A stretch of DNA of 57,537 bases from Nitrospira japonica (GCA_020723105.1 DYJL01000018.1:1-57537); one strand, 5' to 3'. Shown: positions 22,364-49,631, numbered from the stretch's first letter. Numbers and translations are program-made. Notes: generated from the letters alone by a model not told the origin.

Positions 22364-22367
22364 TTTT

Positions 22368-24384: not shown

Positions 24385-25872
24385 ATGAAAAAGAAGATAG
24401 CCATTGTCAGGGGATACAATCTTAATAAATGGGAGATGCAGAACTATGAAGCCCTTTCAGGCCTATATGATATCACAGCCTATACAACGAAGCCATCCAA
24501 GTTTGACATAAACCAGATCGAATTTCCGGTTGTGCAGCTTCCCTTTCAGTCCCCGGGGCTTACGTTATATATGGAGGGACTGGAGGATCATCTTGCGGAC
24601 AAAGACCTCATTTACACTGCGGATATATCGTGGCTGTTTTCTGCTCAGGCTGTTGTTGCAAAGAAGAGGCATGGCTGCAAGATAGTCTGCCTGGAATGGG
24701 AAAATATTCCTTTCAATAATGAAGGAGATAAAACTGTAAGCAGGACCAAGGAAATAGTAAGGAACAACGCTGATCACTTTATTGCTGTTACTGAAAGAGC
24801 CAAAGAGGCCCTTATACTTGAAGGGGTGTCAGAAGAAATAATAGACGTTATCCCTATGGGGGTTGATTTAAATAAATTCAGACCCTCTGACGCAGATACG
24901 CTTAAAGACCGGAACGAACTGAAACTGAATAACAAAGATATAGTCATTCTCTTTGTCGGAAGAATAGTATGGGAAAAGGGTATATATGACATCATTCACG
25001 CTGCAGCAAGAATTTTCAAAGACACTCTGTTAAGGGGATTACCGATAAAATTTCTTCTGGCAGGAAACGGCATTGAATTGAACATATTGCGTAACCGGGC
25101 CGGAAGTCTTGGCATTTCAGACCGCATTATTTTTCTTGAAAGTCATCCCTATGACAAAATGCACAGACTGCATAACATGGCAGATATTTTTATTTTACCC
25201 AGCATTCCCTCGACGACCTGGCAGGAACAGTTCGGCATGGCGCTTGTAGAAAGTATGGCTTGCGGAAAGCCTGTCGTCTCCACAATGTCAGGTTCGATAT
25301 CTGAAGTGGTTGGGGATGCGGGGCTTCTTGTTCAGCCTAATGATCACCTTTCCCTGTATCAGGCGATAAAAAAAATAATATTGGATAAAGCGTTCAGAGA
25401 CAGTTTGGGTCAGATGGCGCTGGCCAGGGCTGTTAATAACTTTGATGCGGGAAAGACTGCTGAAAAAGTTAGTGAAGTTTTTGAAAAAGTTCTGTCGCGC
25501 AGAATATTAAATGACGATATCAAAACGGGTTATGAGCAAGGCTTGAAATTCTGGGAAACCGGTGAGCAGGAGAAAGGTTTTCAGATGGTTTGCAGCGCTT
25601 TCAATGAAGATCCGGATAACAGAGAGGTCCTGAACTCAATTGTAAAGATGGGTTGTAGAATCGGGAAACCCGATGTTGCAGAGCAGGCGTTACGGGAATA
25701 TCTTATCTATCATCCTGCAGATATTGAAGCCCTCATTACAAGGGCCGGGATACTGTTTGATGTGAATAAATTGGAGCAGGCCGCAGAAGAGCTGCAGAAG
25801 GTATTTCTGTTTGAACCTGAAAACCAAAAGGCTGCCGCATTGATGGAAAAACTGAAAATAGCTGTCAGTTGA
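24385..25872 (+). CDS. GT4 glycosyltransferase with C-terminal TPR
   Basis: A 495-residue protein. Residues about 1-365 have the two-Rossmann GT-B fold of family GT4: an acceptor domain, then IVILFVGRIVWEKGIYDIIHAA and the donor-site block FGMALVESMACGKPVVST (E-x7-E type). Residues about 370-495 form TPR-like helices (FETGEQEKGFQMVCSAFNEDPDN and FDVNKLEQAAEELQKVF). It is probably a cytoplasmic sugar transferase using a nucleotide-sugar donor. It is the first gene of the island, after a sigma-54 promoter and just before fliS2, which suggests flagellin as acceptor (inference). Confidence 0.88.
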   Translation: MKKKIAIVRGYNLNKWEMQNYEALSGLYDITAYTTKPSKFDINQIEFPVVQLPFQSPGLTLYMEGLEDHLADKDLIYTADISWLFSAQAVVAKKRHGCKIVCLEWENIPFNNEGDKTVSRTKEIVRNNADHFIAVTERAKEALILEGVSEEIIDVIPMGVDLNKFRPSDADTLKDRNELKLNNKDIVILFVGRIVWEKGIYDIIHAAARIFKDTLLRGLPIKFLLAGNGIELNILRNRAGSLGISDRIIFLESHPYDKMHRLHNMADIFILPSIPSTTWQEQFGMALVESMACGKPVVSTMSGSISEVVGDAGLLVQPNDHLSLYQAIKKIILDKAFRDSLGQMALARAVNNFDAGKTAEKVSEVFEKVLSRRILNDDIKTGYEQGLKFWETGEQEKGFQMVCSAFNEDPDNREVLNSIVKMGCRIGKPDVAEQALREYLIYHPADIEALITRAGILFDVNKLEQAAEELQKVFLFEPENQKAAALMEKLKIAVS

Positions 25873-25910
25873 CAGATTTTTTAATAACTATAAAAGGAAA
25901 GGGGATATGC

Positions 25911-26285
25911 ATGGAAAATACTGTTGTCAGGAGTGATGCAGGAGTAAGCATTGCGGACAAGATAAAAACTGTCTCTTTGCTTTATGACGGAGCGCTTAAT
26001 TTCATGCAGGTTACAAAAAAGAAGATCGAACATGGCGATTCATACGGAAAGGAACAATACGTAAAAAAGACAATTGCAATTGTGGAAGAGCTGTCGAGAT
26101 CTTTAAACCCGGAAGGAGGCGAGATAGCACAAAATCTCCAGAAACTTTATGAATACGTTCTCATCAGCCTCCAGCGTACTGATAAGCAGAATGATCTGAA
26201 GGCGCTTGATGACGCAGGAAAGGTTTTAGGAATTTTAAGAGACACCTGGAAGGAAATACAGGAAATTGAAAAATGTAAGATCTGA
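25911..26285 (+). CDS. Second FliS-like chaperone
   Basis: A 124-residue paralogue of FliS. KIKTVSLLYDGALNFMQVTKKKIEHGDSYGKEQYVKKTIAIVEELSRSLNPEGGEIAQNLQKLYEYVL (given here in its natural order but best read in segments) parallels the fliS gene at 23756. ATG 25911 has AAAGGAAAGGGG upstream and is preferred over a TTG at 25869. It lacks the NYRK-type N-terminal segment of FliS. It lies between two glycosyltransferases, so it may present flagellin to the modification enzymes or serve another substrate. Confidence 0.85.
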   Translation: MENTVVRSDAGVSIADKIKTVSLLYDGALNFMQVTKKKIEHGDSYGKEQYVKKTIAIVEELSRSLNPEGGEIAQNLQKLYEYVLISLQRTDKQNDLKALDDAGKVLGILRDTWKEIQEIEKCKI

Positions 26286-27444
26286 CTGCAGATATTTTGC
26301 CGGAGATAAACCCTGCAGATTCCATAAGATAAGCGGAGTAAAATGCGGTTCTTGTCAGCAATACGCTGTTGCAGACAAGAAGGTCTTAATAATTAAACTT
26401 GGAGCGCCTGGCGATGTACTGCGTACCACTCCGGTGCTGATGGAATTAAAATGGCAGAATCCGGCGGTTCACATCACATGGATTACAGAAAAGAGGTCTT
26501 TACCACTGTTAGAGCATAATCCCTATATTGACAGATTGTGGGAATATTCAGCAGAGGTTATTGCGAGGCTTTATATAGAGGAATTTGATCTTGTGCTGAG
26601 CCTCGATAATTCCGGAGACTGTGCTTCTTTTGCATCACTTGCAAAAAGCCGGGAGAAACTTGGATATGGACTTAATGAAAAAGGGGTCATATTCCCTTTC
26701 AATAAAGAGGCCGAGGCCTGGCTTGAGATGGCCGTATTTGATGATATTAAGAAGGCTAACAGGCGGACCTATCAGGATCATATATTCAGTATCTGCAGAT
26801 TGAAATTTGATCCTTATCTTCATGAGATAGTATTAAATCTTAAAGATGATGAAAAAATATTCGGGAGAAAATTTGCACTGACGTATGGAATAGAGGAATC
26901 AGACCTGGTGGTTGGCATGAATATAGGGTCAGGCGGACGCTGGCCTATGAAACGGTGGAAAGACGAAGGCTTTATTGAGCTGATTGAAAGACTGTCAAAA
27001 GAAGAAAAGGTTAAGGTTGTTCTTCTTGGAGGTCCTGAGGAAGTGGAAAGGGCTGAAAAAATAAAAAATGACCTTGACACAAAGGGAATAAATATCATTG
27101 ACGGCGGGTGCAACAATACGTTGAGAAATTTTATCGCCCTTGTTGATGTCTGCGATGTGGTTGTTACAGGAGATACACTGGCAATGCATATTGCGGCAGG
27201 CATGAAGAAGTATGTGGTGGCATTTTTTGGACCCACTTCTGCAGCAGAGATAGAACTGTATGGGCGGGGGATTAAATTAATGCCAGAAAAAGAATGCATA
27301 TGCTGTTACAGACAAAGATGCGAGATCAGGCCGTATTGTGTCGAAAGCATCACCGTTGATAAGTTTTTAATAGCTGTGAAGGAATGTCTGAACAGGTATG
27401 ACCTGACAATTGAAACTCCTGAAAAACATCATGCGCTTATGTGA
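26266..27444 (+). CDS. GT9 (heptosyltransferase-like) glycosyltransferase with Cys-rich start
   Basis: A 392-residue protein. The GT9 core begins at about residue 38 (VLIIKLGAPGDVLRTTPVL) and has NIGSGGRWPMKRW and VVTGDTLAMHIAAGMKKYVVAFFGPT, the ADP-heptose:LPS heptosyltransferase pattern. The first 35 residues hold four cysteines (CRYF..KPC..KCGSC) that could bind a metal. More cysteines near 344-361 (CICCYRQRCEIRPYC) could join them. The start is TTG 26266, overlapping fliS2 by 20 bp. The acceptor sugar is unknown. Confidence 0.87.
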   Translation: MKNVRSDCRYFAGDKPCRFHKISGVKCGSCQQYAVADKKVLIIKLGAPGDVLRTTPVLMELKWQNPAVHITWITEKRSLPLLEHNPYIDRLWEYSAEVIARLYIEEFDLVLSLDNSGDCASFASLAKSREKLGYGLNEKGVIFPFNKEAEAWLEMAVFDDIKKANRRTYQDHIFSICRLKFDPYLHEIVLNLKDDEKIFGRKFALTYGIEESDLVVGMNIGSGGRWPMKRWKDEGFIELIERLSKEEKVKVVLLGGPEEVERAEKIKNDLDTKGINIIDGGCNNTLRNFIALVDVCDVVVTGDTLAMHIAAGMKKYVVAFFGPTSAAEIELYGRGIKLMPEKECICCYRQRCEIRPYCVESITVDKFLIAVKECLNRYDLTIETPEKHHALM

Positions 27445-27455
27445 GGGAGAATAAT

Positions 27456-28352
27456 GTGAAACTGCCGGTAAACATATCACATTTTGACATCGAAACAGTC
27501 CGGGGATGTTTCTTGAGATGCAGGTGGTGTCCGCTTGATAAAAACAAACCTTATCAGTTTATGGAGCTGGACCTTTTTGAGAGGATAATTGATGAGATTG
27601 AAAGGGCAGGAGCAGGATATCAAAGGATAGACCTTTTCAGAGGGGGAGAGCCTTTTCTTTATCCTGATATCAGATCTCTTCTTTCAACACTGGAAAACAG
27701 AAAAATGTCCTGCGGGAGGACTGCAGGTTTTTTTACAAATGGGATGGCCCTTAATAATGAACATATAAGTGCGATAGTAGAGTCGCCTCTGAATATGGAG
27801 ATAGTTTTTAGCGTGGACGGAGTGGGCACGAGGGAAAGCTTTGAATATATGCGTTTGGGAGCCAAATGGGATGTCATCAAAAAGAATATATTGTTTCTGT
27901 CGGAAACAAGAAGAGGATCTGCTTACGGAAGACTGAAGAAGATTGCTGTCTCAACAATTATTCCCCGTCAGGAGGCCGTACCATTTCAGGTTCCCAGTAA
28001 AGAAATAATATATAAAGCATTTAAGAAAGAGTTCATGCCGCTTGGAGTTGATGAATTTTATTACCGCGACATACACAGATACAACGGACAGGTTTACTTG
28101 GACGGCATGCCTGACAAAGAGATGAGAAACGGGCCCTGCTGTTTTGTAAAAAGGGGCGGGATATCCATTCTCGTGGACGGCAGGGTTTCGGCATGTTGCG
28201 GCGATCTGGCAGACACACTTATTGTCGGAGATTTAAAAAATGAAACGCTTGAAGAAATATTCTACGGGCGCAGGTTGCTGTCCATAAGAGAGAAGATGTT
28301 AGCAGGAGAACGATTTAAACTGGAAGTTTGCGGAACGTGTGATCTGAGGTGA
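27456..28352 (+). CDS. Radical SAM protein with SPASM-like C-terminus
   Basis: A 298-residue enzyme from GTG 27456, which has AGGGAGA at good spacing (a GTG at 27441 is an alternative). The 4Fe-4S/SAM motif is CFLRCRWC (C18, C22, C25), then RGGEPFLYPDI, the SAM-binding GGEP block. The C-terminal cysteines (GPCCF, SACCGDL, CGTCDLR) suggest an auxiliary cluster as in SPASM or twitch enzymes. It is a cytoplasmic modifier of a peptide or sugar; the substrate cannot be told. It lies between a GT9 and the carbamoyltransferase fusion. Confidence 0.85.
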   Translation: MKLPVNISHFDIETVRGCFLRCRWCPLDKNKPYQFMELDLFERIIDEIERAGAGYQRIDLFRGGEPFLYPDIRSLLSTLENRKMSCGRTAGFFTNGMALNNEHISAIVESPLNMEIVFSVDGVGTRESFEYMRLGAKWDVIKKNILFLSETRRGSAYGRLKKIAVSTIIPRQEAVPFQVPSKEIIYKAFKKEFMPLGVDEFYYRDIHRYNGQVYLDGMPDKEMRNGPCCFVKRGGISILVDGRVSACCGDLADTLIVGDLKNETLEEIFYGRRLLSIREKMLAGERFKLEVCGTCDLR

Positions 28353-28359
28353 TATTTCT

Positions 28360-31300
28360 ATGTATATACTTGGCATAAATGCTTTTTATCATGACGCAGC
28401 GGCAGCCCTGCTTAAGGACGGCAGGATCGTTGCAATGGCGGAAGAAGAAAGGTTTATCCGTAAGAAACATGCCGAAGGCGCTTTTCCGCATCATGCAATA
28501 AAATTTTGTCTTGAGCATGAAGGGATCACATTCAGGGACGTTGAATATATGACCTTTATGCACGACATCAGGGCTATTCTCTCCAACGATCCGGTTATAG
28601 AGCCGATTAAGAGTTCCTTTGCAGCACAGCCGAATTTATATGAAAAGTTCCGGGAAACCTTTAAGGGACATCTTGATTATCTCGAAGCTTACTGCAGGGA
28701 AAAAGCCATGGCCCTGAAAATAGTTTCCCATCATGACTGCCATCTGGCTTCCGCATTTTTTGGCTCTGACTTTGATGAGGCAAATATTATATCCATTGAC
28801 GGCAGGGGAGACAAAGAAACTGCTGTGTTAGCTTTTGGAAAGGGAAGCACTATAAGAAAGCTCCTTTCTGTTCCCATGCCTCACTCACTGGGTCTTATTT
28901 ATACGGCAGTAACGGACCTTCTCGGGTTCAGACCTTTTGACGGAGAAGGAAAGGTTATGGGACTGGCCCCGTATGGAAAGGACCGGTTTCGGGAAATATT
29001 CAACGAAATTGTTTATCCGGCGTCACAGGGTTTTGAGACAAGAACAGAATATTATTATCCATTGGTATATGGGTTCATACAGGGCAAGAGCAGGTTAGAA
29101 GAAATATTTGGGAATAAGAGGACGCCTCATAATAATTCCATAAATGGCCTGGATGAAGATATTGCCTGTTCCCTTCAGAGCAAAACCGAAGAAATTGTTT
29201 CACATCTTGTGGACCTGCTTTATTCGATGACGGGATGTAGAAATTTCTGTCTGGCCGGAGGTGTGGCCTTAAATGCAAAGATGAACGGGCTGTTGCTGAA
29301 GAAATCAAATGTTGAAAATATATATATTCAGCCTATAGCCAATGATGCGGGATGTGCCCTGGGCGGCCCTATGCATCTTTATAATGAACTTACTGGCAGA
29401 AGGCCTGACAGGACAAACACTGTATATTTGGGCCCCTCTTATGACAATGATTCATTAAGACATATTTTAAAAATGAGCGGTCTTAACTATATGGAGTCAT
29501 CTGATATTGTTGCTGATTGTGCAGCCATGCTTTCAGAAGGAAAGATTATTGGATGGTTTCAGGGAAGAATGGAGGTGGGTCCAAGGGCGCTCGGAAACCG
29601 TTCAATTCTTGCCAATCCTGCAGATCCTCGTATGAAGGACCGGATGAACAACAAAGTAAAGAGAAGGGAGCCATGGAGGCCCTTTGCAGCTTCGATCCTT
29701 TCAGATTTTAAAGAAGAGTATCTTGAAAATGCATACGATGCACCGTTTATGATACTGAATTTTGGCGTAACGGAAAAGGCAAAAAGAGACCTGACGTCTG
29801 CAATCCATATTGATTTTACAACCAGACCCCAGACCGTAAGCGAAAGCCAAAATCCCCTTTATTATCATCTGATAAAAGAGTTCGGAAGACTAACAGGTGT
29901 TTCAGGCTTGCTTAATACGTCATTCAATCTTGCTGGTGAACCTATTGTATTAACTCCGGAAGATGCATATAAGGACCTTATCAATTCGGACATGGATGCT
30001 CTTGCAATTGGCAACTTCATAGTGCAGAAACAGGGGAAGAGAAAAATTGTTTCATCCGGATTTGCAGAGGTGCAAAGAGATTACAAGCTGTCCTTTGACC
30101 AGTATCAAAGGTACAAAATGGTTACAGACATCATTAATGATGAAAGAATAAATAACGTCCTGAATATTCTTGACATAGGAAGCGGCCCTGTAGATATCAG
30201 CGAGTTTCTGCCTGACGACAAAATAACGAGGCTGGACACAGAGAACAGGAGTGAAGCTGGATATATATGCGGGAGTGCGCTGGACCTGCCGTTCAGGGAC
30301 GGTTCTTTTGATGTCGTTATTTCCTGCGACATGTTTGAACATATAAGGGCTGAAGATAGAGAGGCTTTTCTCAATGAGATGGACAGGGTCTCAAAGCAGA
30401 TGTTTATTATTGCCTGTCCTTTCAGCAGCAGTGCAGTTGAAAAAGCAGAAGCAAAGGTTAATTCATTTTACAAGGACCTGTTCGGCTACGAGCATAAATG
30501 GCTTATTGAACATAGAGAGACTGGTTTGCCCTCTATGGAAATGCTCAAAACATGGGTTTGCACAAAGGGTTATGGGGCTGAAATTTTATATAATGGATCA
30601 CTTGATACATGGCTGCCGATGATGTTTCTCGGCACATATCTGGAAAAGCAGAGCGCATGGGAAATTTATTTCAGACTGAACAATATCTATATACGTGAAA
30701 TATATTCCGGTGATAATTATTCCCCTTCATACAGGAATATAGTCGCAGTAAAAAGGGGGCTGACAGAGATAAAAGATAATCCCTTATATGGAGAAACGTA
30801 TAAGAATAAAGATCTGTCCATGATGATATGGTCTTCGCTGGTTGAAAAAGTTAAGGAAGACACCGGATTACTTTTCAATATCATAGATAAAGATTATGAG
30901 AGAGAAACAGTAGAGAAACTGGTGAGATCAATTGCTTCCAGTGAATTCCTTCTCAGGCATTTCAGAGACAGAGTGGAGGGTTTTATAAGGAGCACACAAT
31001 CTGAGGATGATAGTATAACCAAGAAACTGCTTGAATTTACGGAACCGTTTAAAGTGTTGCCTTATGATTTTCTTGAGGACCTGAGTAAACGTTACAGAAA
31101 TGGCAATGTTAATGCAGATGTAATGACAAAGATATTATGTATGTATATTGAAGCAAAGCCTGACAGCGCAAAGGGATGGAATAATCTCGGAGTAGTTTTT
31201 TCAGAAAGAGGAGATACGGTTGAGGCAAAATATGCCTTCTTCAACGCATGTCTTCTTGATTGCCCTGTTGCATACAGGAACTTATGGCATCTGTATCTAA

Positions 31301-31980
31301 TTTTAGATGAAAGTGAAAGTGCGGAGAAGGTTATGGATGAGGGGATAAAGAAAGGCCTGGATGCAGTCTGTTTTGATGCGCTTTCTTCACATAAAGCAGA
31401 GGCTCTTGCAAAAGAAGCAGGGCTTTTACTCGAAAGGGTGCATAGAAACAGAGAGATAATGGACACCCTGCAGACAGAGAAGGAACGCCTTAAACTTACA
31501 TTGGAGAAGTACAGGAAATTTACTGAAGTTGCCGAAAAAGTTATTGGGGAAAAAGAAGCTTATATATCTGATATTAAATCAGTTATCAAAGATAATGAAC
31601 AAAAAGTGCAGGTGATGTCAGAGACGGTGCAGCAGTTTGATAAGGCCCTGCCTGCAATTAAAAAAATTACAGAGAGTATCAACGGGAACCATGAAATTAA
31701 CGGGTTGCTATTGAAGCTTGGAGAATTATGTTTTGAATTTGGCTCCTCTGTCTGCGCCGGATACCTTTTTGAAAAAGTCCTTTCTTCAGAACCTCAGAAC
31801 TGTGAGGCTTTGAACAACCTGGGGGTTTTGAATATTCAGAAGGGAGATTATGAAACAGCAAGGGATCTTTTTATTAGAGCCTTGATTGCAAGTCCGGGAA
31901 ATAAGGAAGCAAGTATAAATCTTGACTTACTAAGTCAGGAAAAATGTGAAACGACAATAAAAGAAAGGACGGGAAAATGA
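28360..31980 (+). CDS. Carbamoyltransferase-methyltransferase-TPR fusion
   Basis: A 1206-residue multidomain protein. Residues 1-345 are a NodU/TobZ-type carbamoyltransferase N-domain (ILGINAFYHDAAAALL; HHDCH near 123-127 with the HxxxH metal pair; CLAGGVALNAKMNG). Residues about 380-565 are the C-domain (GRMEVGPRALGNRS at about 401; LLNTSFN). Residues about 590-740 are a class I methyltransferase (DIGSGPVD near 605, SCDMFEHI near 653). Residues about 925-970 and 1130-1195 are TPR, with a coiled coil at about 1030-1095. It should O-carbamoylate a sugar and methylate the same or a nearby target. This fusion is not one I recognise. Confidence 0.88.
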   Translation: MYILGINAFYHDAAAALLKDGRIVAMAEEERFIRKKHAEGAFPHHAIKFCLEHEGITFRDVEYMTFMHDIRAILSNDPVIEPIKSSFAAQPNLYEKFRETFKGHLDYLEAYCREKAMALKIVSHHDCHLASAFFGSDFDEANIISIDGRGDKETAVLAFGKGSTIRKLLSVPMPHSLGLIYTAVTDLLGFRPFDGEGKVMGLAPYGKDRFREIFNEIVYPASQGFETRTEYYYPLVYGFIQGKSRLEEIFGNKRTPHNNSINGLDEDIACSLQSKTEEIVSHLVDLLYSMTGCRNFCLAGGVALNAKMNGLLLKKSNVENIYIQPIANDAGCALGGPMHLYNELTGRRPDRTNTVYLGPSYDNDSLRHILKMSGLNYMESSDIVADCAAMLSEGKIIGWFQGRMEVGPRALGNRSILANPADPRMKDRMNNKVKRREPWRPFAASILSDFKEEYLENAYDAPFMILNFGVTEKAKRDLTSAIHIDFTTRPQTVSESQNPLYYHLIKEFGRLTGVSGLLNTSFNLAGEPIVLTPEDAYKDLINSDMDALAIGNFIVQKQGKRKIVSSGFAEVQRDYKLSFDQYQRYKMVTDIINDERINNVLNILDIGSGPVDISEFLPDDKITRLDTENRSEAGYICGSALDLPFRDGSFDVVISCDMFEHIRAEDREAFLNEMDRVSKQMFIIACPFSSSAVEKAEAKVNSFYKDLFGYEHKWLIEHRETGLPSMEMLKTWVCTKGYGAEILYNGSLDTWLPMMFLGTYLEKQSAWEIYFRLNNIYIREIYSGDNYSPSYRNIVAVKRGLTEIKDNPLYGETYKNKDLSMMIWSSLVEKVKEDTGLLFNIIDKDYERETVEKLVRSIASSEFLLRHFRDRVEGFIRSTQSEDDSITKKLLEFTEPFKVLPYDFLEDLSKRYRNGNVNADVMTKILCMYIEAKPDSAKGWNNLGVVFSERGDTVEAKYAFFNACLLDCPVAYRNLWHLYLILDESESAEKVMDEGIKKGLDAVCFDALSSHKAEALAKEAGLLLERVHRNREIMDTLQTEKERLKLTLEKYRKFTEVAEKVIGEKEAYISDIKSVIKDNEQKVQVMSETVQQFDKALPAIKKITESINGNHEINGLLLKLGELCFEFGSSVCAGYLFEKVLSSEPQNCEALNNLGVLNIQKGDYETARDLFIRALIASPGNKEASINLDLLSQEKCETTIKERTGK

Positions 31981-34900
31981 AAATTGCCCTTATACAGACA
32001 CCAAGCTGGGGGATTAAAAGTCCGCCCTTTGCATCAGCTACCCTCTCTGCGTATCTGCGAAAGCATGGATACAAAGTTTACAAGAGGGATTTGAATATTG
32101 AACTTTACAATGCCTGTCAGGGAAGTTGTTATCAGGAAAAGTGGAAACTCAATGAGCCGTTCTGGGGAGTACCGGAGATGGTTGAGAAGTTCTTCTCTGA
32201 TTATAAAAAAGTGATAGACAGTATGGTGGATGATATTATTCAGTCCGGTGCGAAGCTCGTCGGTTTTACTACCTTATGGAGCAATATAAATACAGCACTT
32301 CTCCTTGCACAGGAGATTAAGAAAATGGCTTCTGATATTTATATCGTAATGGGAGGCCCCCAGTGCAGCAGGACCAGAGACGGTGAGAAGATAATGTCTT
32401 TGCCGTACGTTGATTTTACAGTTCACGGTGAAGGTGAGGAGACCCTGCTGGAGCTTGTTCAGGCCCTGGATAAGAAGAAAGACCCTGTTGGGATCAGGGG
32501 CCTGTTCTGTAAATCTGATGGAAAGGCAGTTTACGGAGGAGACCGGGCGCTGATAGCCGATCTTAATACTCTTCCATTTGCAGATTATGACGATTATGAC
32601 CTTTCACTTTACCAAAAACCGATTATGCTTCCGGTCTCAACATCAAGAGGCTGCCCGAACAGATGCGTCTATTGTGATGAAAAGCAGTTCTGGAACAGAT
32701 ACCGGTTCCGGACCGGAGAAAGGATATTCAGGGAGATCGAGCATTTTGTTAATAAATACGGAGTGAACAGATTTGAGTTCTGTGATTCTCTTGTTAACGG
32801 TCATGTTGTTGCGCTTGAAAAATTTTGCGATCTGGTTATAGAGAATAAACTTGAGATCGAATGGATGGGACAGGCTGCGGTGCATTCACGTATGACAAAG
32901 GACGTTCTCGGAAAGATCAAGGATTCAGGCTGCTTTCATTTGTGCTTTGGCATGGAACATACTTCAAAACTGCTCCTTTATAAGATGGGTAAGGTCATGT
33001 GCAACAAGACGGATTTTGACAAGCTCATCCGGGACTGTGATGAAGTTGAACTGGGAGTAGGGTTGAACTGGATGTTTGGATATCCCGGAGAGACAGATGA
33101 AGATTTTCAGGCTGATCTTGATTTCTTTACCCGTAACGCCCCGTATATGAAAAGAGTTTCGGTAAATCCGAGCCCTGGATTTTGCGGCTTTACCGAAGGA
33201 TGTGAGGCCTACAAATTTCCTGAGAAATATGAGGTAAAGCTTCATCAGAATGCAATGTACTGGGAATCGGTTGATGGAACAAATACCTTCCCTGCGAGGC
33301 TGGATAAATATCAGCGTTTCACGAGGCATCTTCAGGCGCTTGGTGTTGTAATTACCTTCCAGCCTTTTGAGGATGAAGATAAAGAGAAAGGCGAATATTA
33401 TTTTGCAAAGGAGAATTACGAAAGGGCCATATTCTATCTTGAATCTTCCCTGCGGAATAAAGGGTACACATTACAGAAATTCAATGTCCTCACAGAGTGC
33501 TATCACAGAAGCGGCATGCTTTATAAAGCACTGGATCTATACAGGGAACTTGTAAAGAACGGTCTTGATAGAAAGGATAGATTTGAGGTCGAGAAGTCCC
33601 TGAGAAAGGTCTTCCCTTTCCTTACAACAAAAGACCTTTACAGCCTCGTTGAATCATATGATTTGGCATTGATACAGGCGCCGGCCTGGGGCATCAATAC
33701 CCCGCCTCTTGCGACAGCCACACTTACCGCTTTTATGCGGAATGAAGGATACAAAGTGATCCCTCTGGATTTCAATATTGCCTCGTTACATATCAGGAGT
33801 GAACAGTTTATGAGATCGTGGGATCTGGCAGAATCGCTTGTATTCTGGTATACGAAGGAAGACGTCATGAGATTTGCAACAGCGCATAAGGCATATCTCG
33901 AGAGATGGACTGATTATGCTATAGGCAGTGGAGCCGGTGTCATAGGATTCAGTATCTATGGCTCTTCCCTTCATATGAGTTTGTATCTTGCGGAGTTGAT
34001 CAAGAAGAAGAAAGAATCAGTTGTAGTTGTTTTTGGAGGACCGCATATGAGCAGGTTCATGGCTGGAACGAGCACTATCGAGAGTCCTTATGTTGATATA
34101 GTAGTGGACGGGGAAGGCGAACTTACCCTCAAGGAGATAATGCAGAGGCTCAAAGAGGGAAAGGAACTCTATGGATGCAGGGGAACCATCCAGAAGGCCC
34201 CCGAAGGTGTGAAAATCTTTGAAGAGAGGGAATTGATAAAAGACATAAGTCATCTGCCTTATCCTGATTTTACTGATTTTGATTTTAAACTCTATGCCAA
34301 GCCGGAAAGCCTGCCCATGATGTCAAGCAGGGGATGTCCAAACCGCTGTATCTATTGCAATGAAAAACCTTTCTGGAAGAGATACAGAGCCAGGAATGCT
34401 GACAGCATGTTCAATGAATTTATGCATCAGTTGAAACTGTACCCTCGGATAAAGTTCATAGAATTTCATGACAGTGTTATAAACGGCAATATCAGGGAAC
34501 TCGAAAGGTTCTGCGATCTTATTATAGAAAATAACATCAAAGTCTACTGGTCCGGTCAGGCTGTAATCAGAAAAGAAATGGATTTTCGCCTGTTATCAAA
34601 ACTCGGAAGGGCCGGATGCATATCTTTGGGCTATGGGGTTGAGACGGCTTCTACAATTCTTATGGAGAGCATAGGCAAGGTTTTATCCAAAGACTCTGAT
34701 ATAGGAAGGATACTTGCAGAGGGCCGGAAGGCCGGAGTAAATAATTCGGTTAATTTCATGTTTGGCCTGCCTGGAGAGACCGAAGAAGACTTTACTGAAG
34801 TCTTAAAATTTTTAAGGAAGAACAAAGACTATATCGGCACCGTAAATCCAAGCCCTTCTTTTTGCGGATTTGCCCCGGGCACGAAAGGCTATGAAGAGCC

Positions 34901-39890: not shown

Positions 39891-39901
39891 AGATCCATTT
39901 T

Positions 39902-41575: not shown

Positions 41576-41601
41576 ACGCCAAGTTAATGGAGAGAAATGA
41601 T

Positions 41602-43200
41602 ATGGAAAATCATGCAAAGGATATTCTGTTTATTGTAGGTCCGAAATGCGACGTACTTAGTCCGCCGTTGAGCGTCCCCTGTTTGACCGCATATCTCAGA
41701 AAAAAGGGATATGATGTTGAGGTATATGATTTAAATCTTGCCTGCTATTTGAACAGGGATGAAAAGTATAAAGAATACTGGACTGTTAAATTTCAGGAAT
41801 TCTGGATGAGAGCTGATTCTGTTGAAGCCTATTTCGGTGATAATGCAAAATTTGTACTTGATCTATTATTTAAGATCTCAGCTGAAAAACCCATTGCTGT
41901 AGGATTTACCAATTGGTTTACAAATTTCGAATCCAATTTGTATATAGCGGGAAGAATAAAAACTATTTCCCCTGAAACAAAGATAATCTTCGGGGGGCCT
42001 GAAATATGGATGAGGCTGAATTCAGGCAGACTGACGGATGAGCAGCATAGTTTTATCGATGCTTTTGTAGTGGGTGAAGGAGAAGAGACATTGGATGAGC
42101 TTATGGCATTGATCAAAAAAGGTGAAGATATTTCAAGTTGTCCAGGCATAGCTTATTTTCATGAGAAGAGCATAATTTCAGTCCCAGGACGCAGGCGAAT
42201 TATGGATCTTAGACACATGCCCTCCCCTGATTATACCGATTTTGACCTGAAGAACTATGAGGCAAATGGCAAGATAGTCAACGCTTATTTCAGCCGCGGG
42301 TGTGTTAATAAATGCATATATTGTGACGAAAGGACATTATGGGGGGTATTCCGCACAAAGTCAGGCAGTCAGGTTTTCAATGAAATAAAAGAAATGTCTG
42401 AAAAGTATCCGCAATTGGTCCATATTTATTTTAATGATTCCCTGGTCAACGGGAACATCAGGGCGCTGAAGGAATTTTGTCAGCTTATGATCGTTTCATC
42501 ATTAAAGATCGAATGGGAAGTCAATGCGATCATTCGTAAAGAGATGGATGCTGAATTGCTGGAATTAATGAAAAAGGCCGGATGCAGGCGACTGATATAC
42601 GGCGTTGAGAGTACGTCAAAAAGTGTTCTGGCGAATGTGGGAAAGGTGTTTTCGAGAGATGCGGACATGGACAAAATAGTCAGGGACACTTCAAATGCAG
42701 GAATTGAGGCATTTCTGAATTTCATGTTCGGACTGCCGGGAGAGACAGATGCTGACGCCCTTGAGAATATTGATTTTGTCATCAGGAACAAAGACTACAT
42801 TCATACCGTTGTCCCGACATTTGCTTTATGTAATCTAAGCCCGTTCTCAGATGCATATTTAAACCCGGAAAAATACGGAATAAATAAGAAAGTAGACATA
42901 TGTTACTGGGAAAGTGACGACGGCACAAATAATTTTCCGGTACGTTTGTCCAGATTTGAAAGATTTTGCAGGGAAGTGAATAAGCACAAAATCAATACCA
43001 GCTATCCGCATAATGAACTGATGGACCGTGACAAGAAGCTTGGTTTCTACTATTGCTACATTAAAGAATATCAAAAGGCAATCGAGTTCCTGGTTCGCGC
43101 TGTTGAAATAGAGCCATGGGACAGTGCGGCTGCAAATACACTAAAAACATGCCGTTACTTAGTATCAAAAAATCTGGCCCATATGCAGTCGACAGGGTAA
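41602..43200 (+). CDS. B12-binding radical SAM protein (single unit)
   Basis: A 532-residue protein from ATG 41602 (GGAGAG 7 bp upstream; ATG 41587 would add 5 residues and has no site). A B12-binding-like domain at 1-190 (LSPPLSVPCLTAYLRKKGYDVEVYDLN) is followed by radical SAM SRGCVNKCIYC (C234, C238, C241) and NDSLVNGN. The late GLPGETDADALENIDFVIRNKDYI block lies before a short TPR-like tail. It is collinear with each half of the tandem protein at 31977 and is probably the ancestor-like form. Confidence 0.88.
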   Translation: MENHAKDILFIVGPKCDVLSPPLSVPCLTAYLRKKGYDVEVYDLNLACYLNRDEKYKEYWTVKFQEFWMRADSVEAYFGDNAKFVLDLLFKISAEKPIAVGFTNWFTNFESNLYIAGRIKTISPETKIIFGGPEIWMRLNSGRLTDEQHSFIDAFVVGEGEETLDELMALIKKGEDISSCPGIAYFHEKSIISVPGRRRIMDLRHMPSPDYTDFDLKNYEANGKIVNAYFSRGCVNKCIYCDERTLWGVFRTKSGSQVFNEIKEMSEKYPQLVHIYFNDSLVNGNIRALKEFCQLMIVSSLKIEWEVNAIIRKEMDAELLELMKKAGCRRLIYGVESTSKSVLANVGKVFSRDADMDKIVRDTSNAGIEAFLNFMFGLPGETDADALENIDFVIRNKDYIHTVVPTFALCNLSPFSDAYLNPEKYGINKKVDICYWESDDGTNNFPVRLSRFERFCREVNKHKINTSYPHNELMDRDKKLGFYYCYIKEYQKAIEFLVRAVEIEPWDSAAANTLKTCRYLVSKNLAHMQSTG

Positions 43201-43344: not shown

Positions 43345-44334
43345 ATGAACATCAGCATGTTTTCAGCAGGGATTGTTCCTCCGGTTTATTATGGCGGAAC
43401 GGAACGGGTAGTGGACTGGCTCATAAAAGAGTTGTGCGCTCTGGGACATAAGGTATATTTTTTCGGCCCCGCGGGTTCTGATGTTCCAATAGCTGAACAG
43501 GTAGTTTATCTGGATTTTCCGGAGGGACGCATTAATGAAAATCCGATTGATTTTCGGGAACAAATTCCTGTTGACACAGAGCTGCTCCATATGCATTGCG
43601 CTACAAATCTGGATTACGGATATCCTGTGCTGAAAACAGTGCACGGTTATCCATTTCACAGAGGGCAGATTCTTGCAACAAGAGAACAGTTTGATGAGGA
43701 TTATTCATTCGTGAGCAAAGCCCACAGGAATGCATGCGGAAGGCCTGAAAATCCTTTCGTGTACAACGGCATAGATTTAAATGAATACATTTACTCTGAA
43801 AGCAAGAATGATTATTTTCTTTTTCTTGGGAAGGTGGACTGGGCCGTAAAAGGACTTCAGCTTGCTTTAAAAGTTGCAATGGATATGAAATTGAAATTAG
43901 TAATTGCAGGAGATTTTTTTGACCCCACTTTTTATACAAGGATATTGAAAGGGCTGCTGAGTGAGGACTTTCAGTACATTGGGCCTGTAGGGGGAGGAGA
44001 GAAGGCAAAATTACTGGCAAAGGCGCGGGCCCTGCTATTCCCTACCATGTGGCCGGAACCTTTTGGGCTTGTTGTTACAGAGGCCCTTGCAAGCGGCACT
44101 CCGGTTTTAACTTCTTTTGAAGGAGCTATGCCTGAAATCATGCTTCAGGGGGTTACCGGATTTATGTGCAGGACCGTTGGGGAGATGAAAAAAAATATAA
44201 AATTGCTGGACCGGATTGATCCCAGAAATTGCAGGGAGCATGTGGAGAGGCATTTTACTTCAAGAAGGATGGCTCTCGATTATCTCAAGCTTTATGAGGA
44301 AATGATAAAAAAATATGCTACTGTTGGCACTTGA
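43345..44334 (+). CDS. GT4 glycosyltransferase
   Basis: A 329-residue GT-B protein with an acceptor-domain opening FSAGIVPPVYYGGTERVVDWL, FLGKVDWAVKGLQLALKVA, and the donor-site block PTMWPEPFGLVVTEALASGTPVL. It is preceded by 144 bp without a gene that has a Shine-Dalgarno-like AAGGAGAG at 43299 but no start at the right spacing. The ATG itself lacks a good site. It is soluble, with unknown acceptor. Confidence 0.86.
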   Translation: MNISMFSAGIVPPVYYGGTERVVDWLIKELCALGHKVYFFGPAGSDVPIAEQVVYLDFPEGRINENPIDFREQIPVDTELLHMHCATNLDYGYPVLKTVHGYPFHRGQILATREQFDEDYSFVSKAHRNACGRPENPFVYNGIDLNEYIYSESKNDYFLFLGKVDWAVKGLQLALKVAMDMKLKLVIAGDFFDPTFYTRILKGLLSEDFQYIGPVGGGEKAKLLAKARALLFPTMWPEPFGLVVTEALASGTPVLTSFEGAMPEIMLQGVTGFMCRTVGEMKKNIKLLDRIDPRNCREHVERHFTSRRMALDYLKLYEEMIKKYATVGT

Positions 44335-44354
44335 ATGCCAGAAAGGAAGCACTG

Positions 44355-44590: not shown

Positions 44591-44606
44591 TGGCAAGGGA
44601 ATTGCA
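44591..44606 (+). promoter_or_regulatory. Sigma-54 promoter of the second island unit
   Basis: TGGCAAGGGAATTGCA has GG-N10-GC spacing and is nearly identical to the promoter at 24318. The predicted start is near 44617, leaving 68 bases to the ATG at 44685. Confidence 0.78.
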
Positions 44607-44684
44607 TTATAGCGAGGAAGGTCAATCTGACCATGTGTGTTTATTTGGTTGAAATGGAGACACGCTGGATATATTGAGAACAAT

Positions 44685-47417
44685 ATGACACAGAGAATTC
44701 TGATATTTAACTGGCATGAAGGCTATATTAATCTTTTAGCCAGAACCGGCTATCAGTTTGATGTTGCAGAGGTATGGAAGGGCCACAGGTTTGGATGGAT
44801 AAAGGAGTTTACGCCGGTTCCGGAAAATTGCCGCCTCATATCAGAGGACGAGGCGTTTTCAGGACTGAAAGAAGGCCGGTATGACAGGGTTGTTTCCCAG
44901 AACATTGATGACCTCTTGCTGGTATATGAATACAGGGCGCCTATAATACAGCTTTTCCATACGAAATTTTCATACATGACCGCATTGCTGCCGGAACATG
45001 CAAAAAAATATCTTCGTGAAAAATTAATAGAAGTAATCAGTTTAATAAATGACATTACCCTGGTTTTTGTATCTTCTTCCAAAAAGAAGGACTGGGGTTT
45101 TGAAGGGGAGGTCCTTCTTCCCGGCATAGACCCTGATGAATATGGCTCCTATCATGGAAGCATCGAAAAGGTATTAAGGGTTGGAAACGGGCTGACCCTT
45201 AGCAGCATGAAACATATCAGGGAAAAGCTGCTCGGAGAAATTCCGTGCACAGTCATTGGAGACAGCCCTAACATACCGGAAGCCTTACTGCCGTCGGACC
45301 GTCAGGAATACAGGAGTTATCTGCAGGGCCACCGGCTTTATCTGAGTATGTTAAATGATAAGGATGACGATGGTTATAACCTTTCAATGCTTGAGGCTAT
45401 GGCCACTGGAATGCCGGTTGTTTCTGTAGCAAATGCAACATCACCCCTTATTAATGGTGTTAACGGGTATATATCTGATGATAACGCATATCTGAGGGAA
45501 AGAATCAACGAACTGCTTAACAACAAAGCGTTGGCTGATGCGCTTGGCAAAAAGGCAAGAGAAACGGTTATTGAGAAATTTCCGGTAAAAACGTTTATTG
45601 AAAACTGGAAGAGGGTGCTTGAACCCATGCCAAAGCCATCAAGAGGACGGACACTGTTTGAAAAAAATCTTTTGGTACTTAAGGAGCGTAACCCCGGACT
45701 GTCAGAAACAATTGAAAGGCAGAAGCCGGACTCTCAACACGAGATTGTTAAAATAAAATCCGGAAAGATGTCTTTGAAGGTTGATAATATTCTGCTGCAC
45801 AGTCTTTATGATCCGGAAAAAGAAGCTGAAGAATGGGTAACGCACTATGAAGAAAAGATTGACGCCGCAGCATCAATTGTGGTTCTCGGTTTCGGGCTTG
45901 GCTATCATATTGCAGAGCTGTGCAAAAGAACTGAAAAGGAAATAATTGTTTTTGAACCTCGTCTTGAGATTTTAAGTACCGCGCTGCAGTCTGTCTGTCT
46001 GTCATCGGCGCTTAAAAAGATAAGGATAGTGACCGGTGAGAGGATACCTTCTTTAGGAAATAATCCCCTTGCAGTCCTCCAGCACAAACCGTCTGTAAGC
46101 ATCAGCCGTAGATATTTTGAAAAACTGCTGACACGTATGGAAGCCCGTGAAAAAATCAACAAAGGGATAAAAATACTCGTTGTCGGTCCTTTGTATGGCG
46201 GCTCTCTCCCAATCGCTGTTAATTGTTCTTCTACATTGAAGAAAATGGGGCATCGGGTGGAACTTCTGGACAACAGCAGATTTGCCGAGGCTATGTTCTT
46301 TGCCAAAAATATAACAAAAGACAAATTCAGATATAACAGCATGATTGATAATCTTTCGGCCTTTCTTACGGAAGCGGTTCTCGCCCGATGCGAGACCTTT
46401 AAACCGGACCTCGTCTTTGTGCTGGCACAGGCGCCTATGACAGTTGAGGGCCTGAAGAAATTAAAAAATGATAACATCCCGACTGCGTTCTGGTTTGTTG
46501 AAGATTTCAGGGTGATGAATTACTGGAGAAATATTGCCGGCCATTATGATTACTTTTTCACCATACAGAAAGGTGCTTTGTTTAATGAGCTGAAAAAAGC
46601 AGGAGCGAGAAATTATCACTATCTTCCACTCGCGGCTAACCAGGATGTTCACAGGAAAATTGAGTTGACTGATAATGAAAAAAATTATTACGGCAGTGAC
46701 GTTTCTTTTGTTGGCGCCGGGTATTACAACAGGAGACATTTATTCAAGGGCCTGATTGATTATGATTTCAAGATATGGGGCACAGACTGGGATATGAACT
46801 CAGCCCTTGCAGGATGTGTGCAGAGGGCTGGTGAGAGAGTTGATACAGATGACATTGTCAGGATATTCAATTCATCAAAGATAAACATAAATCTCCACTC
46901 ATCAACATACCACAAGGGAATAAATCCTTTCGGGGATTTTGTAAATCCAAGGACCTTTGAGCTTGCAAGCTGCGGGGCTTTCCAGCTTATTGACAACCGT
47001 TCTGAGCTTGCAGATTTTTTTGAGCAGGGAGAAGAGATAATTGTATTTGAAGGACTTGAGGACCTCAGACAGAAGATTACATATTATCTCGACCACACCG
47101 AAGAAAGGGAGAAAATAGCAGAGAAGTCCCGGCAGAGGGTAATTAAGGAACATACTTATAAACACCGGATGCAGCAGATGCTGGACCTTTTAGCGGATAG
47201 CGGATTTCAGCCTCTGTCAGAGGATGATGACGGCGAAAGCGTTGAGGCCCTTATTGAAGAAGCAGGCCCGGGCAGTGAACTGTCTGAATATCTTTCAAGG
47301 TTTATGACTAAAGAAAGAATAACCCTCTCTGATATTGTCAAGGATATAGAAGAAAGTGAGGGGGACCTGACACGAACAGAAGCTCTAATGCTTACCATGA
47401 ATGAGTTTGTGAAATAG
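44685..47417 (+). CDS. GT4-Maf-like-CgeB-like triple fusion glycosyltransferase
   Basis: A 910-residue protein from ATG 44685 (a GTG at 44637 would add 16 residues). Residues 1-345 are a GT4-type domain (MLEAMATGMPVVSVANATSPL). Residues about 355-475 are a Maf-like N-terminal module (LHSLYDPEKEAEEW, VVLGFGLGYHIAEL, IIVFEP). Residues about 485-870 are CgeB-like (VVGPLYGGSLPIAVN; FELASCGAFQLIDNRSELADFFEQ). A 40-residue acidic tail ends the protein. The last two modules match the gene at 39902. It probably transfers several sugars; the acceptor is inferred to be flagellin. Confidence 0.83.
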   Translation: MTQRILIFNWHEGYINLLARTGYQFDVAEVWKGHRFGWIKEFTPVPENCRLISEDEAFSGLKEGRYDRVVSQNIDDLLLVYEYRAPIIQLFHTKFSYMTALLPEHAKKYLREKLIEVISLINDITLVFVSSSKKKDWGFEGEVLLPGIDPDEYGSYHGSIEKVLRVGNGLTLSSMKHIREKLLGEIPCTVIGDSPNIPEALLPSDRQEYRSYLQGHRLYLSMLNDKDDDGYNLSMLEAMATGMPVVSVANATSPLINGVNGYISDDNAYLRERINELLNNKALADALGKKARETVIEKFPVKTFIENWKRVLEPMPKPSRGRTLFEKNLLVLKERNPGLSETIERQKPDSQHEIVKIKSGKMSLKVDNILLHSLYDPEKEAEEWVTHYEEKIDAAASIVVLGFGLGYHIAELCKRTEKEIIVFEPRLEILSTALQSVCLSSALKKIRIVTGERIPSLGNNPLAVLQHKPSVSISRRYFEKLLTRMEAREKINKGIKILVVGPLYGGSLPIAVNCSSTLKKMGHRVELLDNSRFAEAMFFAKNITKDKFRYNSMIDNLSAFLTEAVLARCETFKPDLVFVLAQAPMTVEGLKKLKNDNIPTAFWFVEDFRVMNYWRNIAGHYDYFFTIQKGALFNELKKAGARNYHYLPLAANQDVHRKIELTDNEKNYYGSDVSFVGAGYYNRRHLFKGLIDYDFKIWGTDWDMNSALAGCVQRAGERVDTDDIVRIFNSSKININLHSSTYHKGINPFGDFVNPRTFELASCGAFQLIDNRSELADFFEQGEEIIVFEGLEDLRQKITYYLDHTEEREKIAEKSRQRVIKEHTYKHRMQQMLDLLADSGFQPLSEDDDGESVEALIEEAGPGSELSEYLSRFMTKERITLSDIVKDIEESEGDLTRTEALMLTMNEFVK

Positions 47418-47418
47418 G

Positions 47419-49158
47419 ATGAAAGAAATATTAATCATAAATCTCACACGGATGGGCGACCTCCTGCAGACAACACCTTTGATGGCAGGATTTAAAGAAG
47501 CCTATCCCGGAGTCAGAATTACACTCGTGATTAATTCTTCTTTTGTGGAAATCTGTAAAGGCATTCCGTTTATCGGGGACCTTATTGTCTTTGACATGCA
47601 CGGTTTCAGAGACCGGCTTTTACAGAAAGAGCACAGCCTGGTTGAAAACTACAAATTAATAGAGAGCCTGATAAACAGGATTAACGAGAAGGAATATGAC
47701 CTGGCTCTTAATTTAACCCATTCTCCAATCAGCGCTTTAATTATTTCTCTGATCCGGGCCCGTGAAATAAGAGGTTTTACAATTGATTCCGAGGGACACC
47801 GGGTAATACGGCACCCCTGGTTAAGATACTTCTTCAATGTGGTTCCCAACAGGGATTATAATCCGTTTCATCTTGTTGATATGTATCTTAAAGCAGGCGG
47901 GGTTATGCCGCAACGGAAAGGACTGATATTTGAAATACCCGAAGATGGTGAAAGGAAATCTGAAGAACTTTTAACAGCTCGTGGAATTTCAGGTAAGGAG
48001 CTTATGGTCGGGATTCATCTCGGCGCCAGCAAAAGCGACAAGACCTGGCCTGTGTCGTCCTTTGCAGCGCTTGCAGACATGATTACAGAGGAATCAGGGG
48101 CGAAGATACTTCTTTTCGGGTCACCTTCTGAAGCAGATTTGGGAAGGGAATTTGAAATGAAAGTTAAAGCCCGGCCCATAAACTTTATAGGGCAGACCAG
48201 CATTGCAGAACTGTCGACCCTTCTTAGGAAGTGTTTAGTGCTTATCAGCAACGACACCGGGCCTCTTCATCTGGCCACTGCTGTTGGGACGAGGGTTATA
48301 GATATTTTTACTGCAAATGTTCATTTCCTGGAAACAGGGCCTTATGGCGAGGGACATTATGTTATACAGGCAGATCTTCCCTGCGTGCCCTGTGCCTTTA
48401 ATGTGCAATGTAACAATATGGTGTGCAAGGACCTTATAAGGCCCTTGCATGTTTTTGAGATTGCAAAGGAGATTATACACGGAAACTTTGCAACAGCCGT
48501 ACCGGATCCTCACATGTTTAATAACGTTCAGATTTACCAAACACATTTCAAGGATGACGGGTCTTTAGGATTTTATCCCTTGCTTAGAAAACCTCTCAAC
48601 AAGGAAATAATATACCGCATCCTTTACAGCGGAGTATGGAACAGAAAGCTGAGCAGAAATGCAGATAGAGTTTATAACGAGGTCTGCAGAGAATTGTCAT
48701 CTTGTTATGCATTAGATAATATTGATGAAGTAGTGATTTCATTAGGCAGTGATATTAAAGTCCTGGAGAAATTTTCAGAGCTTGCAAATGAAGGACAGGT
48801 CCTTGCCGGCCTGATTGCTGAAGAAGCAGGCCGTAAGAATCCGGATGTGGAAAAACTGAAAAGAATCTGGGTAAATCTTGAGACCCTCGATAATAAGATA
48901 GAAGTTCTCGGACATACCAACCCCTGCTTCAGGCCTTTTACAATATTTTTTGCTTATTCAAAAGAAGCTCTGGAAGGGAATGATTTGCTTAAACTCTCTG
49001 CTGATACTTGCGGTATTTATGAGGACCTGCTGACAGGATCTGTATTTATGCTGCAATTGATGAGAGACATTAAATTATTTCTTGAAGCGGCAACGAAACC
49101 GTTAAACGGCAAACTTAACGTGGATCAGATTCGTGGCACAGAATATTCAGTTTATTAG
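47419..49158 (+). CDS. GT9 glycosyltransferase with unknown C-terminal domain
   Basis: A 579-residue protein. Residues 1-350 are GT9 (EILIINLTRMGDLLQTTPLM; GIHLGASKSDKTWPVSSFAAL; LISNDTGPLHLATAVGTRVIDIF), followed by a Cys-rich stretch (LPCVPCAFNVQCNNMVC). Residues about 370-579 are helical and not recognised, possibly an acceptor-binding domain. ATG overlaps no neighbour but begins 2 bp after the preceding stop, so they are co-transcribed. Confidence 0.86.
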   Translation: MKEILIINLTRMGDLLQTTPLMAGFKEAYPGVRITLVINSSFVEICKGIPFIGDLIVFDMHGFRDRLLQKEHSLVENYKLIESLINRINEKEYDLALNLTHSPISALIISLIRAREIRGFTIDSEGHRVIRHPWLRYFFNVVPNRDYNPFHLVDMYLKAGGVMPQRKGLIFEIPEDGERKSEELLTARGISGKELMVGIHLGASKSDKTWPVSSFAALADMITEESGAKILLFGSPSEADLGREFEMKVKARPINFIGQTSIAELSTLLRKCLVLISNDTGPLHLATAVGTRVIDIFTANVHFLETGPYGEGHYVIQADLPCVPCAFNVQCNNMVCKDLIRPLHVFEIAKEIIHGNFATAVPDPHMFNNVQIYQTHFKDDGSLGFYPLLRKPLNKEIIYRILYSGVWNRKLSRNADRVYNEVCRELSSCYALDNIDEVVISLGSDIKVLEKFSELANEGQVLAGLIAEEAGRKNPDVEKLKRIWVNLETLDNKIEVLGHTNPCFRPFTIFFAYSKEALEGNDLLKLSADTCGIYEDLLTGSVFMLQLMRDIKLFLEAATKPLNGKLNVDQIRGTEYSVY

Positions 49159-49196
49159 CGGCCTGGTTTCTGGTCCTTTTTGAAAAGGAGGAAAGG

Positions 49197-49631
49197 ATGA
49201 ATGATTTAAAGGATGAGGTTGAGAATCCAGCTTTGCTGAAAGCGATTAAGGACACCTTTGTAGACGCAAGAGACACGGCGCAGAAACTCGCGCAGCAGTT
49301 CAAGGATAATGTCCTGCAGTTAAGGGTGGAGGGGAGCGAAAACGTATTTAATCAACTGGCACAGGATATCACGGACCTTCAGTGCTTTCTGGAATATATT
49401 GGTGAACTCAGTGAAGGAATGAAATATTTTAAAGATGTTGAATCACCGTCTGATCCCGTAACACATCTCGGCGCCGGCCTTAATCTTTTTAAGGAGATAA
49501 ATGCGGCGATTGAGATAAAGGACTGGATAATGCTGTCAGATCTTATTGAATATGAATTAGTGCCTCTGTTGCTTAAAGAGGATGAGTGGCTGGGTTGCTT
49601 AGAGGAAAAACTGAAAATTTATGAGTGCTGA
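49197..49631 (+). CDS. Conserved-looking helical protein of unknown function
   Basis: A 144-residue all-helical acidic protein without signal peptide or membrane segment. Strong AAAAGGAGGAAAGG site. The part with IEIKDWIMLSDLIEYELVPLL looks structured and acidic. I do not recognise a family. It closes the island and may serve as a chaperone or adaptor, comparable in size to FliS and FliT, but this is speculative. Confidence 0.7.
   Translation: MNDLKDEVENPALLKAIKDTFVDARDTAQKLAQQFKDNVLQLRVEGSENVFNQLAQDITDLQCFLEYIGELSEGMKYFKDVESPSDPVTHLGAGLNLFKEINAAIEIKDWIMLSDLIEYELVPLLLKEDEWLGCLEEKLKIYEC

Follow-up and report, generated by a model that had tools for sequence, protein, structure and literature searches.

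A likely flagellin glycosylation island with a radical-SAM tailoring cassette in Nitrospira japonica

Known flagellin glycans typically feature nonulosonic acids and rhamnose, along with methyl or acyl groups of a simple kind. Flagellin glycosylation islands have been described in Geobacillus, where methyl- and formyltransferases are part of the islands and radical SAM or carbamoyl genes are not named (PMC5109656), and in Clostridioides difficile, where the type B locus has a named carbamoyl-phosphate-synthetase-like gene (PMC5207246). Regarding the mechanism, Caulobacter FlmG binds flagellin by its TPR domain and glycosylates it in the cytoplasm (PMC7591256), and Maf glycosylation of flagellin occurs before chaperone binding and export (PMC4065374).

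Here we analyzed a window of 57,537 nucleotides, i.e., the whole stretch of DNA under study, which is contig C45 in its entirety, from a genome assembled to 3.13 Mb. Pfam scans placed 14 co-directional genes and one unknown gene (orf144) in the 25 kb between fliS and a response regulator gene followed by motA-motB. We consider it likely that this island is a flagellin glycosylation locus with a radical-SAM tailoring cassette, in which a flagellin glycan would be assembled in the cytoplasm under the guidance of TPR modules and tailored by radical chemistry.

Gene content and promoters of the island

All coordinates refer to the window and, unless stated otherwise, to the plus strand. The left flank is formed by fliC-flaG-fliD-fliS (21080-24142), in which fliC (21080-21925; PF00669/PF00700) encodes a short flagellin of 281 aa, the presumed acceptor and the type found in relatives with two FliS copies, and fliS1 (23756-24142; PF02561, 126.5 bits) encodes the flagellin chaperone at the left boundary. 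From 49656 onward, the right flank consists of a response regulator gene (49656-50282; PF00072) and motA/motB-type genes; the regulator lies closely 3' of fliS in the island-free loci L055, L058, L062 and L027. Beyond the motor genes, comparison with relatives makes it probable that an opposite-strand gene pair (53503-55310) encodes another MotA/MotB-like stator pair.

The original prediction, made from the sequence alone, had counted at least seven glycosyltransferases, and seven such proteins were recovered by Pfam: a GT4 enzyme with a C-terminal TPR region encoded by the first island gene (GT4TPR, 24385-25872; PF00534, 125.6 bits, TPR_19), which is equivalently placed in relatives; a GT9 heptosyltransferase-like protein (26266-27444; PF01075, 76.9 bits, with TIGR02201/02193 below cut-off); a bifunctional GT2-GT4 protein (GT2GT4, 35528-37888; PF00535, PF13692); a DUF3880/CgeB-type enzyme (39902-41575; PF13524, 121 bits, PF12996); a GT4 enzyme (43345-44334; PF00534, 67.7 bits); a GT4-Maf N-terminal domain-CgeB protein (GT4-MafN-CgeB, 44637-47417; PF13524, 171.7 bits, PF20157, 47.2 bits, PF00534), whose true start is more likely the ATG at 44685; and a GT9 enzyme with an unassigned C-terminal region (47419-49158; PF01075, 104 bits). 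The proposed Maf-like type holds for the N-terminal domain PF20157 of the 44637 protein, no match to the catalytic domain PF01973 being found among the proteins of the window.

The four radical SAM proteins read from the sequence were found as well, two of them of the SPASM type, namely SPASM protein 1 (27441-28352; PF04055, PF13186), with invariant CxxxCxxC and auxiliary-cluster cysteines, and SPASM2 (37885-39039; PF04055, 56.8 bits, PF13186), one B12-binding protein with a single module (41587-43200; PF04055, PF02310), and one 1184-aa tandem double B12-binding protein with a C-terminal TPR (31977-35531; two PF04055 and two PF02310 domains). Because the latter is a tandem of two complete modules, the island holds five radical SAM domains and not four, three of them with B12 domains. 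Five of the 56 PF04055 matches in the genome lie inside the island, compared with 0.41 expected in 25 kb from the other 51 (Poisson p 7e-5), a density about twelvefold that of the genome average. The predicted carbamoyltransferase-methyltransferase fusion is a TobZ/NodU-type protein of 1206 aa (CarbMT, 28360-31980), in which PF02543 (192.9 bits) and PF16861 (222.6 bits) are attached to a class I methyltransferase (PF08241) and TPRs (TPR_17). The remaining genes encode a TPR protein (39036-39890; TPR_2, 119 bits), orf144 (49197-49631; 144 aa) and the second FliS of the original prediction (fliS2, 25869-26285), which is divergent (36% identity to fliS1) and scores well above both cut-offs (PF02561, 94.4 bits vs 26.7; TIGR00208, 68.3 vs 53.75). 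TPR units, expected in several proteins, are present in four, with a weak trace in a fifth, and the 4-bp overlaps noticed earlier join six gene pairs.

In agreement with the claim that nucleotide-sugar synthesis genes are missing and that donors come from elsewhere, Pfam detected none in the island, and gmhA-like and GHMP-kinase (HddA-like) genes are located on other contigs of the same genome. Flagellin glycosylation islands often have such donor-sugar genes but need not. Genes for a flippase, polymerase, ligase, oligosaccharyltransferase or export were likewise not found in the island by Pfam, and by hydropathy only one island protein, GT2GT4, has a clear hydrophobic segment, located at its N-terminus. 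An Rfam search of the window returned no match. The GC content is flat across the island, which therefore bears no compositional mark of transfer.

The two proposed flgF-like sigma-54 promoters correspond to the -24/-12 sites TGGCAAAGGAATTGCA (24318-24333) and TGGCAAGGGAATTGCA (44591-44606). Both share the exact pattern TGGCA-N6-TTGC[AT] with a site at 12126, and these three occurrences in the window, for which Markov simulations covering both strands predict only 0.43, are all on the plus strand just upstream of GT4TPR, GT4-MafN-CgeB and flgF (TIGR02490), respectively. The first site is conserved in many relatives, either before GT4TPR (G001, G005, G007, G008, G009, G020, G022, G023, G029, G031, G034 and G035) or before fliS2 (G002, G004, G005, G006 and G008), and the pattern before the homologue of the 44637 gene is present in G031 and G004, too.

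Flagellar linkage, conserved core and exchangeable cassette

All tests of flagellar linkage were positive, with G000 denoting the genome of the window and several of the comparison assemblies being fragmented. As expected for the flagellin-linked glycosylation island of the original prediction, the same-order cluster is located at fliS in all four carrier genomes (G000, G001, G031 and G034). In the three other carriers of this family one end of it is marked by flagellar genes or fliS2: one contig of G001 holds fliD-fliS1-GT4TPR-fliS2 and the cassette, three contigs of G031 tile from fliC to the motor genes, and in G034 fliS2 and the cassette share one contig, with fliC-fliD-fliS1-GT4TPR on another that ends inside GT4TPR. 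A check of whether the gene set mostly lies far from flagellar genes was accordingly negative, the core being at fliS in other families as well.

FliS was found in 63 out of 120 relatives, with two copies in 20 genomes of this family. Nearly all two-FliS regions begin with fliS1, usually TPR-GT4, and then fliS2 and a variable cassette, and the family-wide order is fliS1, TPR-GT4, fliS2, variable cassette, (MafN)-CgeB pair, GT9, orf144 and regulator. Across the family, the flagellin glycosylation genes at fliS-fliS2 form a hypervariable island. Relatives of the B12-binding radical SAM proteins occur in at least 14 of the 20 two-FliS islands (G000, G001, G002, G003, G004, G005, G006, G008, G009, G015, G026, G031, G034 and G036), and contig ends interrupt three of the six other regions (G007, G029 and G035). 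In the single-FliS genomes G011, G017, G024 and G027 the island is absent and the response regulator follows one or two small ORFs after fliS. A FliT-like ORF of 111-118 aa is found after fliS in the single-FliS loci L055, L058, L027, L062 and L063 and not after fliS1 of the window; FliS2 may be a replacement of this ORF.

In this family, flagellin lengths fall into two classes (about 281 aa and about 610-640 aa). All two-FliS genomes have the 281-aa type, and the long type occurs in six relatives, five with a single FliS and G021 with no FliS match. With G033 as the exception, flagellin length tracks the presence of FliS2, a correlation that is not controlled for phylogeny and may reflect one or two events. 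A general rule that short flagellins are the glycosylated ones was dropped, given the G033 exception, a counter-case in G013 and no such pattern in Geobacillus. Immediately 5' of fliC, the long-flagellin genome G013 encodes a 938-aa protein that combines MafN-like with TPR-like parts (L117:1416-4232).

It appears decidedly improbable that the product of the island is a polysaccharide of the cell surface (capsule, LPS or exopolysaccharide) and that flagellar genes are its neighbors only incidentally. Similar enzyme families do occur in such loci, GT2GT4 has its one membrane-like segment, and relatives of SPASM protein 1 in G134 and G162 stand among glycosyltransferase genes with no flagellar gene recognized nearby, so that this protein family is not flagellum-specific. 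Nevertheless, the flippase, polymerase, ligase and export genes of a surface pathway are absent from the island, the position at fliS is kept in all carriers and by the core in two other families, fliS2 is embedded among the glycosyltransferase genes, and the sigma-54 sites are like that of flgF.

In G055 and G110, which belong to two other families of the class, fliS is followed by CgeB, MafN-CgeB, GT9, orf144 and the regulator with 31-59% identity, and no radical-SAM gene relatives were recognized in these core blocks, which suggests an old core for flagellar glycosylation in the right-hand block and a variable middle part. The CgeB gene at 39902, the GT9 gene at 47419 and orf144 thus look like the older core. 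Conserved in four relatives, orf144 closes the glycosylation core on the right throughout the class; its product has no Pfam match and is predicted to form a four-helix bundle (AF2 pLDDT 81), for which the fold search returned generic four-helix bundles only, none below E 0.001. An assignment of orf144 as FliT was dropped, because the FliT-like ORFs that follow fliS are not significantly similar to it.

Trees of the four carriers point to an exchange of the middle part. Their genus grouping, (G000,G001)|(G031,G034), was recovered by fliC+flaG+fliD+fliS1 (by 166 log units) and by CgeB alone (by 43), whereas (G000,G031)|(G001,G034) was preferred by B12x2C+SPASM2 (by 179), by GT2GT4 260-786 (by 137) and by SPASM2 alone (by 69), and the cassette trees conflict with the flagellar and CgeB trees at AU p of about 1e-4 or less. 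Since SPASM2 is swapped, the TPR gene at 39036 is undecided and CgeB is genus-like, the exchange boundary falls at this TPR gene. A binning error as the source of the conflict was rejected, SPASM2 and CgeB sharing a contig with opposite topologies in both G031 and G034. The cassette exists in two forms, one with the fused tandem B12-binding protein (G000 and G031) and one with separate genes (G034 and G001), and the single-module B12-binding protein shows 88% identity in G031. Judged from these topologies, the cassette has moved between two genera. At the position of CarbMT, G001 carries a pyruvyltransferase-methyltransferase-glycerophosphotransferase fusion and a GDSL-radical SAM/SPASM fusion (L025:9749-15889).

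As the cassette is mobile and varies between relatives, the glycosyltransferases might act on flagellin with the radical SAM and carbamoyl enzymes being passengers or making a diffusible sugar nucleotide or small molecule, and small molecules are indeed often the substrate of B12-binding radical SAM enzymes. We give this explanation very little credence: the reading frames are intact and the cluster motifs kept in all five radical SAM domains, the genes are joined by 4-bp overlaps, both alleles of the cassette keep radical SAM genes, and B12-binding relatives recur in 14 of the 20 two-FliS islands.

Predicted chemistry of the glycan

Of the carbamoylated and C-methylated glycan in the original prediction, the carbamoyl part is well predicted and the C-methyl part only plausible. 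CarbMT matches TobZ with E 3e-97, both of its carbamoyltransferase domains (PF02543 and PF16861) are over cut-off, and the HHDCH and GPRALGNR motifs are present, so that all TobZ/NodU domains and motifs are in place and a carbamoylated glycan is a reasonable prediction. Among 396 sampled genomes of the phylum, the full fusion occurs in G000 and G031, a separate comparison adding G034, and only the carbamoyltransferase half is widespread.

Regarding the B12-binding proteins, no score reaches the cut-off of any curated B12-binding radical SAM family; the RiPP C-methyltransferase family TIGR03975 gave 270.4 bits (two modules) and 143.7 bits with a cut-off of 281.85. C-methylation is therefore one option among radical reactions, albeit a plausible one for these enzymes. 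Both modules of the tandem protein contain CxxxCxxC, with the CPNRC[VI]YC motif occurring twice, and a search of genome contigs gave a single relative of this protein, on the groundwater Nitrospirae MAG contig JACQXG010000090. For SPASM protein 1, BtrN was among the best matches in both sequence and fold searches; its fold resembles enzymes acting on sugars (BtrN, DesII) as well as enzymes acting on peptides (SuiB, SkfB), and the fold search did not separate sugar from peptide substrates.

The B12-binding enzymes might instead act on flagellin itself and change its amino-acid side chains by C-methylation or in another way, in the manner of RiPP or methyl-coenzyme M reductase methylases, with the glycosyltransferases acting separately: TIGR03975 is among the best curated relatives (270 bits, two modules), PDB entry 9ccb (the MCR glutamine methylase MgmA) is among the best sequence matches of the single-module protein, and the TPRs could bind flagellin. 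We hold this to be unlikely, as all family scores stay under their cut-offs, the glycosyltransferase GT2GT4 was exchanged together with the rest of the cassette, and a B12-binding module is fused to glycosyltransferase domains in G015. This genome encodes, between fliS1 and fliS2, a 1337-aa protein composed of a methyltransferase, a B12-binding radical SAM domain and three GT2 domains (L139:1437-5450). G004 has a 983-aa fusion of B12-binding radical SAM, methyltransferase and TPR (L138:673-3624). Directly upstream of fliC in G093, of another family, lies a GT2-methyltransferase-radical SAM/SPASM fusion (L134:14322-17402), and the fusions beside fliC in G093 and G413 join relatives of the CarbMT middle region and of SPASM protein 1, with the GT2 in front in G093. 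G082 carries a radical SAM/SPASM gene and a TobZ-type carbamoyltransferase after fliS in a different gene setting. Since radical SAM domains are fused to glycosyltransferases in relatives, sugars or glycan-carrying flagellin are favored as substrates, and the comparisons indicate that the radical SAM enzymes tailor glycans.

Hints to the sugars come from the cassettes of relatives. The G005 cassette contains genes similar to HddA and HddC, to an aminotransferase, to paired TPP-enzyme subunits and to two nucleotide-sugar epimerase/dehydratases, and a GmhA-like gene (205-207 bits, cut-off 209) lies inside the cassettes of G031 and G034; a full Maf transferase (PF01973) was found in G031. With such donor-type genes in cassettes or elsewhere in the genome of the window, and with two GT9 proteins in the island, the glycan probably includes heptose.

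Proposed mechanism and comparison with known systems

Taken together, we propose that the island would be transcribed along with the flagellar genes from the sigma-54 promoters and that, before export, the mostly soluble GT4-TPR, two CgeB-type, GT9 and GT2-GT4 enzymes would build a glycan on flagellin in the cytoplasm, using donors made elsewhere in the cell, probably heptose among them. The TPR modules on the enzymes may bring in flagellin and the growing glycan, whose sugars could be altered by CarbMT, the two SPASM enzymes and the three B12-binding modules, the reactions being O-carbamoylation, methylation and a radical chemistry of redox or C-methyl type. Thereafter, FliS1 and/or FliS2 would escort modified flagellin to the export gate, a role of FliS2 in serving such flagellin being speculation. 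The middle cassette is exchangeable between species in the fashion of O-antigen loci. Stepwise assembly and tailoring in the cytoplasm, possibly on flagellin, is suggested by the TPRs on enzymes, by the absence of membrane export and ligase genes and by the FlmG and Maf precedents. The genes present, their place and conservation, the promoter-like sites, the fusions and the exchange are observed; we infer the acceptor, the identity of the donors, the order of steps and the exact chemistry. More tentatively, as a possibility that we rate clearly lower, this TPR-guided line might have its B12-binding and SPASM radical SAM enzymes remodel the flagellin-attached glycan into a carbamoylated and C-methylated or deoxygenated form, with the cassette exchanged between genera as an allele.

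If true, a family-wide radical SAM, B12 and carbamoyl island would extend to a protein glycan the type of sugar chemistry known from antibiotics. Its defined gene set, divided into core and exchangeable cassette, would offer a means to tell glycan-starting from tailoring enzymes, would give the second FliS a possible role, and would be an example in which flagellar glycotypes switch between genera, driven perhaps, and speculatively, by flagellotropic phages or grazing. The open-access literature, with most subscription journals outside its scope, yielded no paper relevantly joining flagellin glycosylation with radical SAM, and we know of no earlier description of radical SAM enzymes that tailor a protein-linked glycan in bacteria. 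Flagellin glycosylation islands as such are already known; without an earlier report for flagella, within the literature searched, is the proposed radical-SAM, vitamin-B12 and carbamoyl chemistry.

With FlmG (PMC7591256) the island shares a domain make-up of TPR and glycosyltransferase in one flagellin-linked protein; here the TPR is C-terminal to GT4 and occurs also on the carbamoyltransferase and the B12-binding radical SAM protein. PF20157 is common to the Maf transferases (PMC4065374) and the 44637 protein, in which CgeB-type and GT4 domains are found instead of PF01973. CarbMT has both domains and the motifs of the TobZ/NodU/GdmN O-carbamoyltransferases, here fused to methyltransferase and TPR and encoded beside flagellin. 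The B12-binding radical SAM methylases of the TIGR03975, TokK, CysS, TsrM and Mmp10 types are alike in their B12-binding and radical SAM domains, whereas the island proteins score below every family cut-off, and a tandem duplication in one chain, a TPR and a flagellar locus set them apart. Finally, like the Geobacillus (PMC5109656) and C. difficile (PMC5207246) islands, this locus is a variable cluster by the flagellin genes with glycosyltransferases, methyltransferases and horizontal acquisition, but it does without donor-sugar genes and contains an embedded fliS2 together with radical-SAM, TPR and carbamoyltransferase genes that are not named there.
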